41,226 nt of DNA from Pirellulales bacterium (GTDB lineage: Bacteria > Planctomycetota > Planctomycetia > Pirellulales > JAICIG01): NCBI GenBank assembly GCA_035533075.1, contig DATLUO010000154.1:1-41226 (forward strand). The letters are read 5' to 3'. A program made the translations under genes and the position numbers. How positions within the stretch are numbered: the stretch's first letter is position 1; each line of letters begins with the position of its first letter. Under the pieces are notes generated by a model, which had not been told where the DNA came from, ran no database searches, and saw nothing but the letters and a program-made list of their open reading frames with translations. Positions 2,310 through 37,601 of the stretch are shown here, in pieces.

Positions 2310-2352
2310 GTAGGGTGGGACCAGCGAGCTTGCGAGCGCCGGCCCACCCTAC
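2310..2352. repeat. Intergenic hairpin repeat, GTAGGGTGGG arms
   Basis: A 10-bp arm GTAGGGTGGG (2310-2319) is matched by its reverse complement CCCACCCTAC (2343-2352) around a GC-rich loop containing GCGAGCTTGCGAGCGC. It sits between two Tad genes, immediately upstream of the TadE-like start codon. It could be a mobile palindrome or an RNA hairpin. Confidence 0.7.
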
Positions 2353-3800: not shown

Positions 3801-3802
3801 GG

Positions 3803-3957
3803 GTGGCTGGGGCAGAGCCTGGCCGCGAGACGGCCGTGAATACCGTAGGGCGGAATGGCCAGGCGATGCCCCGGTCGTCGCACCACCGGGGCATCGCGTG
3901 GCCGCCGCGCGGTTTTGCATGGCTGGCTCGATCGAGGCCACGCTCTGCCCCAGCCAC
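3803..3957. repeat. Dispersed palindromic repeat, family A (nested copy)
   Basis: The outer arms are GTGGCTGGGGCAGAGC (3803-3818) and its exact reverse complement GCTCTGCCCCAGCCAC (3942-3957). Inside is a second exact pair, GCGATGCCCCGG (3863-3874) and CCGGGGCATCGC (3886-3897). The same two modules recur near 9.4, 16.8 and 37.0 kb. The copy occupies most of the 220-bp gap between the TadE-like gene and the TadG-like start codon. Confidence 0.85.
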
Positions 3958-3958
3958 C

Positions 3959-4005
3959 GGCCGTCCAACGAGGCACGCGACGGCCTAGGAAGGCCATCCT
4001 CCACG
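3959..4005. repeat. Half copy of palindromic repeat family B
   Basis: GGCCGTCCAACG is followed by CGACGGCCTAGGAAGGCCATCCTCCA. This matches the loop end and the right arm of the perfect palindrome inside putA (21042-21074), with one base difference in the arm core. The left arm is missing; in its place is the end of the family A element. The two families are therefore joined at this site. Confidence 0.75.
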
Positions 4006-4995: not shown

Positions 4996-5006
4996 TGCGG
5001 CGTAAA

Positions 5007-5041
5007 GATGAGGGATGAGAGATGAGGGACGAGGGATGAGG
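5007..5041. repeat. Heptanucleotide array GATGAGG, 5 units
   Basis: Five 7-bp units: GATGAGG, GATGAGA, GATGAGG, GACGAGG, GATGAGG. It is the reverse-complement partner of the array at 5129-5170, so the whole gap could form a large stem. Confidence 0.85.
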
Positions 5042-5128
5042 GAGGGACGTCGTGAGGACGAGAGCGAGCGTGCAACGCCGACCTACGACATCGCAGATTG
5101 AGGAACGGGGCACGGACAACTCCTTTAT

Positions 5129-5170
5129 CCCTCATCCCTCATCCCTCATCTCTAATCTCTGAACCCTCAT
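5129..5170. repeat. Heptanucleotide array CCCTCAT, 6 units
   Basis: Units are CCCTCAT three times, then CTCTAAT, CTCTGAA and CCCTCAT. The last unit runs into the stop codon of the prepilin peptidase gene (TGA read from 5169-5167). It is inverted relative to the array at 5007-5041. Confidence 0.85.
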
Positions 5171-5733
5171 CGCAGCAACCCACTATGCACCAATATGACG
5201 GCCGCCAGCGCCGTCGGCGCCAGGAACCAAGGAAAGGTCATCAGGGCACGTTCTTCCGGCGACAGCTCGGCCCAGCCACCGATCTTTAGAGTATACAAAC
5301 CTTGGCGAAAAACTCTCGCCATCAGCCTGCCGGGACCGACTTTCCAAGCCAAGGCGATGATGCCCAGACAGGCGGCCAGCACGAAGGTCCAGAGCAAGGC
5401 TTCCAGCCCGCGCTCGACGCCCAGGAACGCCCCCATCATAGCCATCAGCTTTACGTCGCCCCCGCCGACGCGGAACAGGACGTAGCAAACGAGCATCAAT
5501 CCGCCGCAGAGCGCAAGGCCGGCCAGGCTGTCTTCGATGCCGACCGCGCCGAGGTAGCGACGCGCCTGCTCGTCGGACACCGCCCCGTTCGACTCAAGCA
5601 CGCCGGCCGAGGCGTTCAGCGCCAGGGCGATCAGCACGCCGGGGTAGGTGGTCCAGTTATAGATTTTGTGCCGGGTGAAGTCGGTCGCGGCGGCGACGGC
5701 GATCAGCACAAACAGGCACGCGAGGGCGATCAT
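5167..5733 (-). CDS. Prepilin peptidase, TadV/CpaA type (A24 family)
   Basis: This 188-residue polytopic membrane protein is an aspartyl prepilin peptidase that cleaves and matures Flp-type pilins. The two catalytic aspartates are visible: D18 in ATDFTRHKIYN and D93 in RVGGGDVKLMAM. Its short length, without the N-terminal methylase domain of PilD, is typical of TadV/CpaA. The ATG at 5733 is chosen because it starts directly with the first transmembrane helix; the frame extends 21 codons upstream into the pilin gene. It begins 8 bp after the stop of the Flp-like pilin, which places enzyme and substrate in one operon. Confidence 0.9.
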   Translation of the reverse strand: MIALACLFVLIAVAAATDFTRHKIYNWTTYPGVLIALALNASAGVLESNGAVSDEQARRYLGAVGIEDSLAGLALCGGLMLVCYVLFRVGGGDVKLMAMMGAFLGVERGLEALLWTFVLAACLGIIALAWKVGPGRLMARVFRQGLYTLKIGGWAELSPEERALMTFPWFLAPTALAAVILVHSGLLR

Positions 5734-9123: not shown

Positions 9124-9426
9124 AAGCCGAGTAATCCGATTGTCGTGCCGCCTGGTCGCTCAGCCTCGATCGCTTCTACGCCGGCATGGCCCAGCGGCGC
9201 AGCGAAGCTTTTGGCCATGACGACGGCCAGACGGAGGGAAGCTGTGCGTGCCCGTCGCGGCACAATCTGTGGAGTGATGTCGCGGATGAATGGAATTGCC
9301 CCGCGGAGAGGCCGCGTCCTGCCGCCTGTATTGAACCTAGAAGCGTCTTACAACCGGCACAACCCCCCTAAGCGTTATGTCGCTTCTTAATTTTCAATCC
9401 GCCTAAACAAGAGAAACGGAATGGCC
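9124..9426. other. Gene-free stretch upstream of the sigma factor
   Basis: No credible coding sequence is seen here. It includes an AT-richer patch at about 9355-9415 (GTCGCTTCTTAATTTTCAAT), which is the expected place for the minus-strand promoter of the sigma gene, but no convincing -35/-10 pair could be assigned. The rest, to 9570, holds the family A palindrome and 70 bp of unremarkable sequence. Confidence 0.5.
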
Positions 9427-9500
9427 GTGGCTTGAGCAGAGCCTAAGCGATGCCCCGATGGTAGCGCATCGGGGCATCGCTTAGGCTCTGCCCCAGCCAC
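9427..9500. repeat. Dispersed palindromic repeat, family A (near-perfect copy)
   Basis: Two 34-bp arms (9427-9460 and 9467-9500) pair with only two mismatches around a 6-bp loop GTAGCG. Each arm holds the module order GTGGCT..CAGAGC, CTAA, GCGATGCCCCGATG. This is the cleanest copy of the family in the window. It lies 70 bp beyond the 3' end of the GH5 gene, where the hairpin could also act on transcript ends. Confidence 0.9.
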
Positions 9501-9570
9501 CGCATTTTGTCAGCGATGACGGGCCCATTTGGGGTCGCGCGACGTAGATCGCCGGACGCAACGGGCACGG

Positions 9571-16801: not shown

Positions 16802-16896
16802 TCGGGGCATCGCTTGGCCGCAGAGCGTGTCCTCAAACCGGGCCCGTCCTGGCCAAGCTCTGCCCCAGCCACCGCCGCTGCTTCGCGATGCCCCGA
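16802..16896. repeat. Dispersed palindromic repeat, family A (rearranged copy)
   Basis: TCGGGGCATCGC (16802-16813) and its exact reverse complement GCGATGCCCCGA (16885-16896) flank GCTCTGCCCCAGCCAC (16857-16872). The module order differs from the 9.4-kb copy, since here the GCGATGCCCCG arms are outermost. It occupies most of the 188-bp gap after the symporter gene. Confidence 0.8.
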
Positions 16897-19086: not shown

Positions 19087-22000
19087 GTGCGCGACGAGTT
19101 TGCCCGACTCGACGAACTGACCCCGCGAGACCTCGAAAACATCGAGCGCACGACGCGCGAGGTGGGTGATTACCTATTCGCCCATCTCGAGGGCCGCCGG
19201 GCCAGCGTTTTCGAGCGGCGTTGGTGGGACGATCGCGTCATGGCCTGGGCCCTGCGCGACGAATCGGTGAAGGTGCAGATGTTCCGCTTCATCGACGTGC
19301 TGCCGATGCTCAACAGCACCGCCGCGGTCGTGGGGCACCTGCACGAATACTTCCACGAAGTCGAACGGCATTTGCCCGGCGCGGTCCGGTTGGCGTTGGC
19401 CGCGGCCACGCCCGACTCGCTGATGGGCCGGGCCATGGCCATCGCCGCCCGACGAAACGCGATGGGACACGCGCGGCGGTTCATCGCCGGCGCCAACACG
19501 GCCGAGGTTCTCGCCGCCGCCATGCGCGAGCGCAAACTCCGCCGCGCCTTTACGCTCGATATCTTGGGCGAAGCCGTGACGAGCGAAGTCGAGGCCGACC
19601 GCTATTGGCGGCTCTACCTCGACCTGATCGAACAGATCAGCCCCACGGTCAACGCCTGGCGTGAAGAGCCGCAGATCGATCGCGCAGGACTCAGCGAGCT
19701 GCCGCGGGTAAACCTGTCGATCAAGCTCTCGGCGCTCGACAGCCGCTTCGACCCGATCGACCCGGAGGGAACGATGCAGCGGGTCGGCCGCCGCTTGCGT
19801 CCGCTGTTGCGACTGGCCCGCGAGCATCATGCCCACATCCACGTCGATATGGAGTCGTATCAGACCAAGGCGCTCACGCTCCGTATCTTTCGCGAAATCT
19901 TGATGGAGCCGGAGTTCCGCGATTGGCCGCACGTGGGCATCGTCATTCAGGCGTATCTGCGCGATGCGGCCGACGACCTTGTGTCGCTCGGCAAGTGGGC
20001 GCGCGAGCGCGGCACGCCCGTGTGGGTGCGGCTGGTCAAAGGAGCTTATTGGGACTACGAGACGATCCATGCCCAGTCGGTCGGCTGGCCGCTGCCGGTC
20101 TGGCAGGAGAAATGGCAGTCGGACGCCAACTTCGAGCAGCTTACGCGATACCTGCTCATGCACCGCGACGTGCTCAAGACCGCGCTGGGGAGCCACAACC
20201 TCCGCTCGCTGGCGCACGGCATCGCGGTGGCCCGGCACCTCGGCCTCTCGCCCAGCGCCTTCGAGCTGCAGATGCTCTACGGCATGGGCGACCAGGAAAA
20301 GCAAGCGCTGGTCGATCTCGGCCATCGCATGCGGATTTACATGCCTTACGGCGAGCTGATTCCGGGCATGGCTTATCTCGTGCGCCGGCTGTTGGAAAAC
20401 ACGTCAAACGATTCCTTCCTCAGGGCGAGTTTTGCCGAAGAGATTTCGCCGGAGAGACTCCTTATGAACCCGCTTGAACATCGTTCGGAAAAAACCGTAG
20501 GCATCTCGCTCCGCGAGATGAATCCCCACGCGGAGCGTGAGGCCTACGGTACGTTCTCCAATGAACCCACGGCCGACTTTGCCCGTGAGGAAAACCGCCA
20601 GGCGATGCAAGCCGCGCTTGCGCAGGTTGGCGAGCAGCTCGGCCGCCACTGTCCGCTTTGGATCGCCGGCCGGCCGGTAGACACCGGCGACCGGCTGACG
20701 TCGATCGATCCCTCGCATGGCGAGCGCGTCGTCGGCACCAGTGCCGCCGCTTCGGCCGAACATGTCGACCAGGCCGTCGCCGCGGCCAAAGGCGCCTTGG
20801 CCGAGTGGAACGGCCTGGGGGTCGAGGCCCGTGCGGACTTTTTGCGTCGCGCCGCCGAGGTGCTCAGGCGTCGGCGTTTCGAGCTGGCCGCCTGGGAAGT
20901 CTACGAGTGCGGCAAAGGCTGGCGCGAGTCCGACGCCGACATTTGCGAGGCCATCGACTTTTGCGAGTTCTATGCGCGTGAGGCGATGTTTCTGCAAGGC
21001 GCTGGAGGATGGCCTTCCCAGGCCGTCCCGGAAATCGAAGGACCAACGGCACGGCCTGGGAAGGCCATCCTCCATGGCGTCGATGTGCCCGGCGAGGAAA
21101 ACCGCTTCACCTATCTTCCCCGCGGCGTGACCGGCGTGATCGCGCCCTGGAACTTTCCCTTGGCAATTCTGACCGGCATGACCACGGCGGCCTTGGTCAC
21201 CGGTAATACCGTGGTAATGAAGCCGGCCGAACAATCGCCGGTCATCGCCGCCAAGCTCATGGAGACCTTCGACGAAGTCGGCCTGCCGAAGGGCGTGCTC
21301 AACTATCTGCCCGGCACGGGCGAGGTGGCCGGCGCGCGGCTGGTCGAACATCCCGACACGGCGCTGATCGCCTTTACCGGCTCGCGCAGCGTGGGCCTGG
21401 CGATCAACCGCCGGGCGGCGGAAGTTTCGGCTGCCGGCATCGGCTACGTGAAGCGGGTGATCGCGGAAATGGGCGGAAAGAACGCCATCCTTATCGACGA
21501 CGACGCCGATCTCGACGAGGCCGTGATGGCCGTGGTCAAAAGCGCGTTCGGCTATCAGGGTCAGAAATGCTCGGCCTGTTCGCGGGTGATCGTGCTGGCA
21601 GGCGTGCATGACGCCTTTGTCAATCGGCTGGTCGAGGCGACGCGCAGCTTGCAGGTCGGCCCGGCGGAGGATGCGGCCACCAGCGTCGGGCCGGTGATCG
21701 ACGCCGACGCCCAGGCCCGCGTCCGCGACTACATCGACGTCGGCCGGCGCGAGGCCCGCGAGCTCCTGGCGGTCGACGTCGGCGCGTTGGCGGAACAAGG
21801 CTTCTTCGTCGGGCCACATATCTTCGCCGACGTGCATTCCGATTCGCGATTGGCACAAGAAGAGATCTTCGGCCCGGTGTTGGCCGTGATCCGTGCCCGC
21901 GATCTCGACGAGGCGTTCGCCATCTTCAACGGCACGCCCTACGCGTTGACCGGCGGCATCTTTTCTCGCAGCCCTGCGCATCTCGATCGTGCCCGGCGCG

Positions 22001-36939: not shown

Positions 36940-37022
36940 GGCGCGATCCCTCCGCCTATCTCGATTCGGCCCACGCGACGCACCTATATAGCACGCGGCT
37001 GACATTGGGGCCAGAATACATG

Positions 37023-37044
37023 GTGGCTGGGACAGAGCTTGGCC
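37023..37044. repeat. Dispersed palindromic repeat, family A (solo half)
   Basis: GTGGCTGGGACAGAGC followed by TTGGCC matches the outer arm of the family A copy at 3803 with one difference, but no opposing arm is near. It lies 9 bp past the stop of the heme protein gene on the minus strand. Confidence 0.7.
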
Positions 37045-37052
37045 GGACGGGG

Positions 37053-37601
37053 CTACTCGATCGGCAGTTTGTAGCTCACCGCGCCGATCACCTGCCCGAC
37101 CTTCTTGTAAGCCGGATGACACGTCATGCACTTTTCGTTGACGACCGGCACCAGCGTGGCCGCCAGCAGATATTGTTTCCCTTTTTCGGTTGCCACTTCA
37201 TCGACGTAGCTTTCGCCGGCGAGGATTCGTTTGATCGCCGCCTTCTCGAAGCTGCTGTGCGGCACGTTCTCATCGTTGGTCGGATGTCCGGTGGCATCAA
37301 CCAGCCGGGCATCGTGCCAGCCCTTCTCGCGCATGGCGGCAAATAAGTCGCGGGCGATCTCGCCGGCCGCGACGTCTTTCTTGCTATCGACGTAGGTATT
37401 GGTGATGAACACGATCGTCGTCTTGTAAAGATCATCGAGCATCTTCACCTCGCGGCGTGCCCGTTCGACGTCGGGATTTTTTGCGGCGGTCGCGGCGTCG
37501 GCGGCGTCCGCGGCGGGTTCACGCAACACGGCGACCGACGCCGCGGAAAGTGCCAGGATCAAACCGCTGGCGGCAAGAGTTCGAGCAGAGAAGTGAGACA
37601 T
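37053..37601 (-). CDS. Tll0287-type (DUF3365) secreted heme-binding protein
   Basis: This 182-residue protein has a signal peptide (MSHFSARTLAASGLILALSA, cleavage about residue 25-35) and a Tll0287-like/DUF3365 domain. The c-type heme motif is VVNEKCMTCHPAYKK (C158, C161, H162), and HDARLVDATGHPTNDENVP is typical of the family. Such domains are PAS-like sensors or electron carriers. The ATG at 37601 has a perfect GGAGG nine bases upstream. It is divergent from the Rrf2 gene across a 228-bp region containing inverted repeats. Redox signalling is inferred. Confidence 0.85.
   Translation of the reverse strand: MSHFSARTLAASGLILALSAASVAVLREPAADAADAATAAKNPDVERARREVKMLDDLYKTTIVFITNTYVDSKKDVAAGEIARDLFAAMREKGWHDARLVDATGHPTNDENVPHSSFEKAAIKRILAGESYVDEVATEKGKQYLLAATLVPVVNEKCMTCHPAYKKVGQVIGAVSYKLPIE

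Follow-up and report, generated by a model that had tools for sequence, protein, structure and literature searches.

The palindromes dispersed through the window, a stretch of 41,226 nucleotides from a Pirellulales bacterium, are best read as REP elements, mostly REPIN pairs, copied by a RAYT-type HUH tyrosine transposase (RAYT, REP-associated tyrosine transposase). From sequence comparison we put the probability of this reading at about 0.87. It draws on the number and extragenic placement of the copies, on the tagged hairpin kept within each unit, and on a relative in which the same REP flanks a RAYT gene. The genome of the window, here G000, is 99% complete and assembled in 296 contigs.

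Copies in the window and in its genome

The copy at 9427 is an inverted repeat of 9424-9460 and 9467-9503, with arms of 37 nt that are 92% complementary and a loop of 6 nt. Within it lies the palindrome that the first-pass annotation had described, with 34-bp arms (9427-9460/9467-9500) and two mismatched pairs. As single-stranded DNA, 9425-9503 is predicted to fold at -40.1 kcal/mol (z = -12 against shuffles). Both halves are compact, and unit 1 matches the compact units of relatives, for example GGTGGCTGGGGCAGAGCCTAAGCGATGCCCCGG in G001. The three further copies that had been listed are also real and lie where they were placed (Table 1); that at 3802-3958 is a complete pair of 157 nt, with a fold of -71.2 kcal/mol (z = -10). 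The copies had been thought to share modules in different order and completeness. They do differ in completeness, but pair and unit combinations and truncation account for the rest, with no re-ordering. What was called modular shuffling is better explained by decay products and by different combinations of units: one pair is compact, one is elongated, a third copy has only one unit and the fourth is a fragment.

Table 1. Predicted REP units in the window
Feature	Position	Strand	Sequence and basis
Compact REP unit 1, 9427 REPIN	9426..9458	+	CGTGGCTTGAGCAGAGC-CTAA-GCGATGCCCCGA, GTGG tag at 9427; sequence
Compact REP unit 2, 9427 REPIN, inverted	9469..9501	-	GGTGGCTGGGGCAGAGCCTAAGCGATGCCCCGA on - strand; sequence and fold
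Elongated REP unit 1, 3802 REPIN	3802..3874	+	local stem pair C/G retained
Elongated REP unit 2, 3802 REPIN, inverted	3886..3958	-	local stem pair G/C retained
Lone elongated REP unit, stem 1 somewhat degraded	16802..16873	-	TCGGGGCATCGCTTGGCC...GGCCAAGCTCTGCCCCAGCCACC
Elongated REP unit, 5' fragment	37022..37053	+	GGTGGCTGGGACAGAGCTTGGCCGGACGGGGC; 84% complementary to 16842-16873

Each of the four window copies sits between predicted genes, in a gap that follows a gene end. The 3802 copy separates minus-strand TadG-like and TadE-like genes, and the 9427 copy minus-strand sigma-70 factor and GH5 cellulase-like genes; the 16802 copy directly follows a sodium:solute symporter gene, and the 37022 copy occupies a gap flanked by two minus-strand genes. 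The window also contains another palindromic repeat, TGGAGGATGGCCTTCCCAGGCCGTCC, inverted and dispersed (21003-21074 and 3963-4003), one copy of which adjoins the 3802 element, and purine-rich GATGAGGGATGAGAGATGAGGGA-type repeats in both orientations (2359-2384, 5003-5043 and 5121-5171).

Genome-wide, the 17-mer GGTGGCTGGGGCAGAGC has 321 matches (163 + 158) with at most one mismatch, and its reversed pattern has 0 + 0. A second-order Markov model predicts 0.19, so that the count is far above expectation, contrary to what the first-pass annotation had named as refuting its reading. Gene context was assessed with dicodon gene calls, which are approximate, in 428 kb of regions picked because copies occur there; copy-age figures likewise come from sampled regions selected for having copies. 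Only 7 of 47 copy midpoints fall within genes, against 76% of random points (p = 1e-18), and 85% of the sampled copies are intergenic. The gaps that hold copies fall into the orientation classes at close to background frequencies. In co-directional gaps 13 of 22 copies are closer to the 3' end, an enrichment that is not significant in the sampled gaps.

Unit structure, distribution and insertion sites

In each unit a GGTGG tag stands at the base of a hairpin made up of an 8-bp stem CTGGGGCA/TGCCCCRG, an internal loop whose mismatch is conserved, and a small inner stem; units are present singly or as inverted pairs (REPINs). Most complete G000 copies are about 153-157 bp long, reading GGTGGCTGGGGCAGAGCyTGGCC...GGCCArGCGATGCCCCGG, a spacer of about 10 nt and then the inverse, and the long pairs of this genome measure about 154 bp. 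The majority of its complete units are elongated, about 73 nt, with a second stem yTGGCC..GGCCAr added and a loop of about 28 nt. In compact copies this added stem (yTGGCC/GGCCAr) is missing and the loop is short, CTAA for instance. Among relatives, G001, of the same family as the window's genome, has mostly single 33-nt units GGTGGCTGGGGCAGAGCCTTGGCGATGCCCCGG, many of them identical; pairs are 81-87 bp in G012 and mostly 72-76 bp in G035, and G050, G172 and G252 carry units of type GGTGGCTGGGGCATAGCGCAGCGGTGCCCCAG. The 65 compact pairs collected from other genomes are mostly 69-87 bp. In one subfamily, outer arms TATACTTCACGCGGCCGAGAATGAGACA enclose the element on either side, giving composites of about 240 bp in many copies.

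Pairing within the unit is strongly conserved. Across 20 distinct units, taken from six genomes plus an additional MAG, 99.5% of cells are paired and three pairs are altered on both sides; none of 500 shuffles came as high in percentage paired and in covariation score. The y/r stem position of elongated pairs discriminates one long hairpin (MITE-like) from two unit hairpins (REP-like). In nine such pairs the diagnostic base pairs within its own unit in every one of 18 cases but with the partner unit in only 2, which indicates that the unit hairpin is the structure maintained.

With a degenerate tag, 10 of 296 genomes of the order Pirellulales, from five families, gave 11 to 375 matches. The remaining genomes gave 0-6, which is the reversed-control level in nearly all genomes (the exception is G049, with 41 control matches). 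G041 has zero matches, yet its congeners G012, G050 and G076 have the REP. A compact-unit scan of one genome per species found, among the matches listed, MAGs of Pirellulales and of other Planctomycetota, together with one carrying the label Nealsonbacteria. The latter (JABMRB01, named Candidatus Nealsonbacteria; L203, L210, L219 and others) has many Pirellulales-type REPs, and probably either its label is wrong or the bin is mixed. In G001, GATTTTGGATTTTCGATT-type repeats often adjoin the REP copies, as at L097:10447-10540 and L098:9650-9850.

Insertion sites could be compared in the genus of G012. For four of its copies (L116, L126, L130 and L140) the sequence joined from the two flanks can be aligned over the junction with that of a congener (G050, G076 or G041), and the orthologous congener gaps are element-free at 4 of 4 loci; the intergenic DNA of the congeners has diverged, so that the exact insertion point is not readable from the empty sites. 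No target-site duplication was found in the 65 compact pairs of other genomes at k = 2-8, where observed equals shuffled, with the exception of pair L140 of G012, which is flanked by the 7-bp direct repeat TTGCTAG. The first-pass term MITE-like, if taken to mean a DDE element that duplicates its target, is not supported. The bases outside the same 65 pairs favour C/T at -2 and G at -1. In a Marinomonas enzyme the tag acts as a guide, and GTGG directs cleavage to CC or CA (PMC8266576); the flanks found here, C/T then G, differ from the CC/CA predicted from that guide.

A RAYT gene in a relative and its probable absence from G000

In JAFLCO010000250 (the record of G050; G050:C169), 35-bp identical inverted REPs GGGTGGCTGGGGCATAGCGCAGCGGTGCCCCAGTA, with tags outward, flank a gene of 187 amino acids, the REP lying 39 nt from its frame. 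The gene was located with a local profile made from the proteins of a Y1_Tnp survey. Against NCBIfam NF047646 (REP-associated tyrosine transposase) the protein scores 79.9 bits (E 1.7e-22) with a cut-off of 80, and in the genome search slightly above the cut-off; a Pfam search of it gave no match. Across the clade alignment the HUH histidines (64 and 66) and the tyrosine (143) never vary, and a search with the clade profile hits PDB 4er8 (TnpArep) at E 6e-11. By these sequence features the gene is a RAYT-type HUH tyrosine transposase in a classical REPtron. A REPtron with the GGTGG REP was seen in one genome only. Related RAYTs of other Pirellulales genomes have their own inverted repeats at the flanks, whose tag resembles GGGTG[CG]C (e.g. 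GGGTGCCATGCCCACGCTTGTCGTGGGCATGT). At L329, L337, L344 and others, also in other Pirellulales genomes, RAYT genes from the clade of the JAFLCO010000250 protein have at their flanks hairpins tagged GTGC, which falls outside the GT[AG]G consensus. An earlier survey with Pfam PF01797 (72 loci in 15 genomes, none closely REP-flanked) had suggested that there was no RAYT. That result proved falsely negative: the score of the REPtron gene falls under Pfam's threshold. Being Pfam-negative yet NF047646-positive, this gene shows that some RAYTs escape a search with Pfam Y1_Tnp alone. Elements about 1 kb from a Y1 gene at L035 and L072 were considered as REPtrons and judged to be chance, given the copy density.

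Single-protein, NF047646 and clade-profile searches found no member of the cognate clade in G000, G001, G012, G041 or G172, where only distant RAYTs occur; four of these genomes, G000, G001, G012 and G172, are REP-rich. Hence the search for a RAYT proposed in the first-pass annotation succeeded in a relative, with identical flanking REPs, and in the window's genome yielded none of that clade by profile. G000 has 13 NF047646 and 12 Pfam Y1_Tnp matches. As a positive control, G000 does contain a REPtron of another type, whose RAYT, at C135:27105-27599, lies between copies of GTAAGGTGGGACAAGCGAGCTTGCGAGCGCCGGCCCACC. In an assembly of 296 contigs the absence of a GGTGG RAYT is likely, not certain. 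The RAYT at C135 represents a second, GTAG-tagged REP family of G000; about 40 copies of it were counted in 428 kb, many of them identical, and 23 of 48 matches are exact over 39 nt. Copies of this family (GTAGGGTGGGACCAGCGAGCTTGCGAGCGCCGGCCCACC) lie in the window at 2310-2348 (+) and at L333.

A cognate RAYT in the same genome is the usual state for REPs but does not define them; REPtrons can be lost (PMC3733652). We infer that the RAYT clade of JAFLCO010000250 copied the repeat in the window's lineage, and that the cognate gene was lost there afterwards, leaving an orphan that may have diversified into the units of about 73 nt. By analogy with TnpAREP, the enzyme would recognise the tag and the mismatched hairpin on single-stranded DNA, for example the lagging-strand template, would cut and rejoin at the recognised single-stranded REP, and new copies would enter between genes with the target not duplicated. 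The repeat had been proposed to be a non-autonomous REP-like element mobilised by an enzyme encoded elsewhere. That proposal is the best supported one, by the copy number, the extragenic position, the GTGG tag and covarying hairpin, the REPINs, the missing target duplications and the relative's REPtron; the cognate RAYT was not found here, and mobilisation of the GGTGG repeat in trans is suggested by the sequences.

Alternative explanations and known systems

A MITE of a DDE transposon, with the GGTGGCTGGGGCAGAGC ends as terminal inverted repeats for a cut-and-paste transposase, would account for the sharp inverted ends, and the subfamily with TATACTTCACGCGGCCGAGAATGAGACA outer arms on both sides, with its many composites of about 240 bp, is what most resembles one. 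Such an origin is highly improbable: besides the missing target-site duplications in the 65 pairs, single one-ended units abound in G001, many of them identical, and covariation is found inside each unit and not between the ends. No autonomous element or insertion sequence with these ends was seen in 428 kb of the genome. The sole long interval, between outer arms 2.4 kb apart at L052, was rejected as an autonomous element, since what lies inside is an island unrelated to the repeat, with a toxin-antitoxin-like pair. Here (L052:6478-8920) an element of the family (family A of the first-pass annotation) is split by an island that, judged by eye, has a tRNA-like 3' end and PIN-like and ImmA/IrrE-like genes. 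An element with a host function, such as a transcription terminator, an mRNA-stabilising hairpin or a nucleoid-protein site, could be multiplied by selection or recombination instead of transposition. Strong hairpins, extragenic copies and the position of all four window copies downstream of a gene end would fit this, but gap orientation near background, the 13 of 22 co-directional-gap copies nearer the 3' end, the patchy occurrence among congeners and the existence of a REPtron in a relative make it very unlikely. Compensatory changes would also be expected of a structured RNA gene or riboswitch family. This has a negligible probability, given that Rfam returned nothing above gathering thresholds in the window and weak matches in the sampled copies that look like chance, that no gene is constantly associated, and that the sites are non-orthologous.

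A variant that does not exclude the RAYT reading is that another RAYT acts on the repeat in trans in G000, for instance that of the GTAG REP at C135 or another Y1 transposase, in which case the repeat would not be orphaned. The many candidates in the genome (13 NF047646 and 12 Y1_Tnp matches) and the GTAG family with its own RAYT and many identical copies lend this some plausibility. However, the repeats at the fetched Y1 genes differ from the GGTGG REP, and a REP type generally has a single full-length RAYT gene, with that REP at its flanks (PMC6006769); we consider the variant possible, if rather unlikely. It is doubtful that in this family of Pirellulales the orphan REPs, having outlasted their RAYT, evolved into large two-hairpin elements of 150-250 bp that spread either by the unrelated GTAG-REP RAYT or through a host function gained by the elongated hairpins. 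Copying by a RAYT of the JAFLCO010000250 clade has points against it too. No cognate clade member was found in the REP-rich G000, G001, G012 and G172, the REPtron was seen in only one genome, the flanking bases are not those expected from a GTGG guide, and pair L140 has its 7-bp repeat. The elongated units are also long, about 73 nt against a usual REP length of 20-40 bp.

The family adds to the Planctomycetota, where REPs had been noted before and little studied, a REP family with an identified RAYT. It offers a natural experiment, with the same REP present with and without its transposase and beside a second REP family that retains its own. This allows one to ask for how long REPs survive once their transposase is gone and whether a RAYT can act on REPs of other types. 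Like IS630-type MITEs (RUP and Nezha, for example), which measure 70-250 bp, the present repeat is short, non-autonomous and inverted at its ends; it differs from them in its lack of a core target-site duplication, its single-ended units and its local hairpin covariation.

The closest likeness is to the GTAG-superfamily REPs (PMC3733652; TnpAREP subclasses in PMC6006769). The conserved stem mismatch and the GT[AG]G tag are recognition determinants (PMC8266576, PMC6006769). The tag here fits GT[AG]G and lies at the base of a hairpin that is short and imperfect, the stem mismatch is conserved as in E. coli REPs, the copies are extragenic and occur as singles, inverted pairs and tandem groups, and in one genome a RAYT gene is flanked by the same REP. 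Unlike those REPs, the family has a GGTGG tag, a stem CTGGGGCA/TGCCCCRG, elongated units of about 73 nt for most complete G000 copies, and several REP-rich genomes in which a cognate RAYT was not found. As in the REPINs of Bertels and Rainey (PMC3116915; PMC8049555), the dispersed unit is two inverted REPs with a short variable spacer, whereas G001 has mostly single units, many identical, and REP singlets are described as usually decaying remnants. The degenerate REP-stem-loop TIR fusions of P. putida and P. fluorescens (PMC3733652) share a REP core within longer inverted arms, dispersed as a composite; here TATACTTCACGCGGCCGAGAATGAGACA forms the outer arm, and none of the RAYTs found carries it. 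The CGTC REPs (PMC3733652) likewise reach high copy number in genomes where no transposase is associated with them; they have another tag, while here one relative does have the transposase association. The GGTGG family is a new REP/REPIN family, and orphan REPs and composites are each already known in other genomes.
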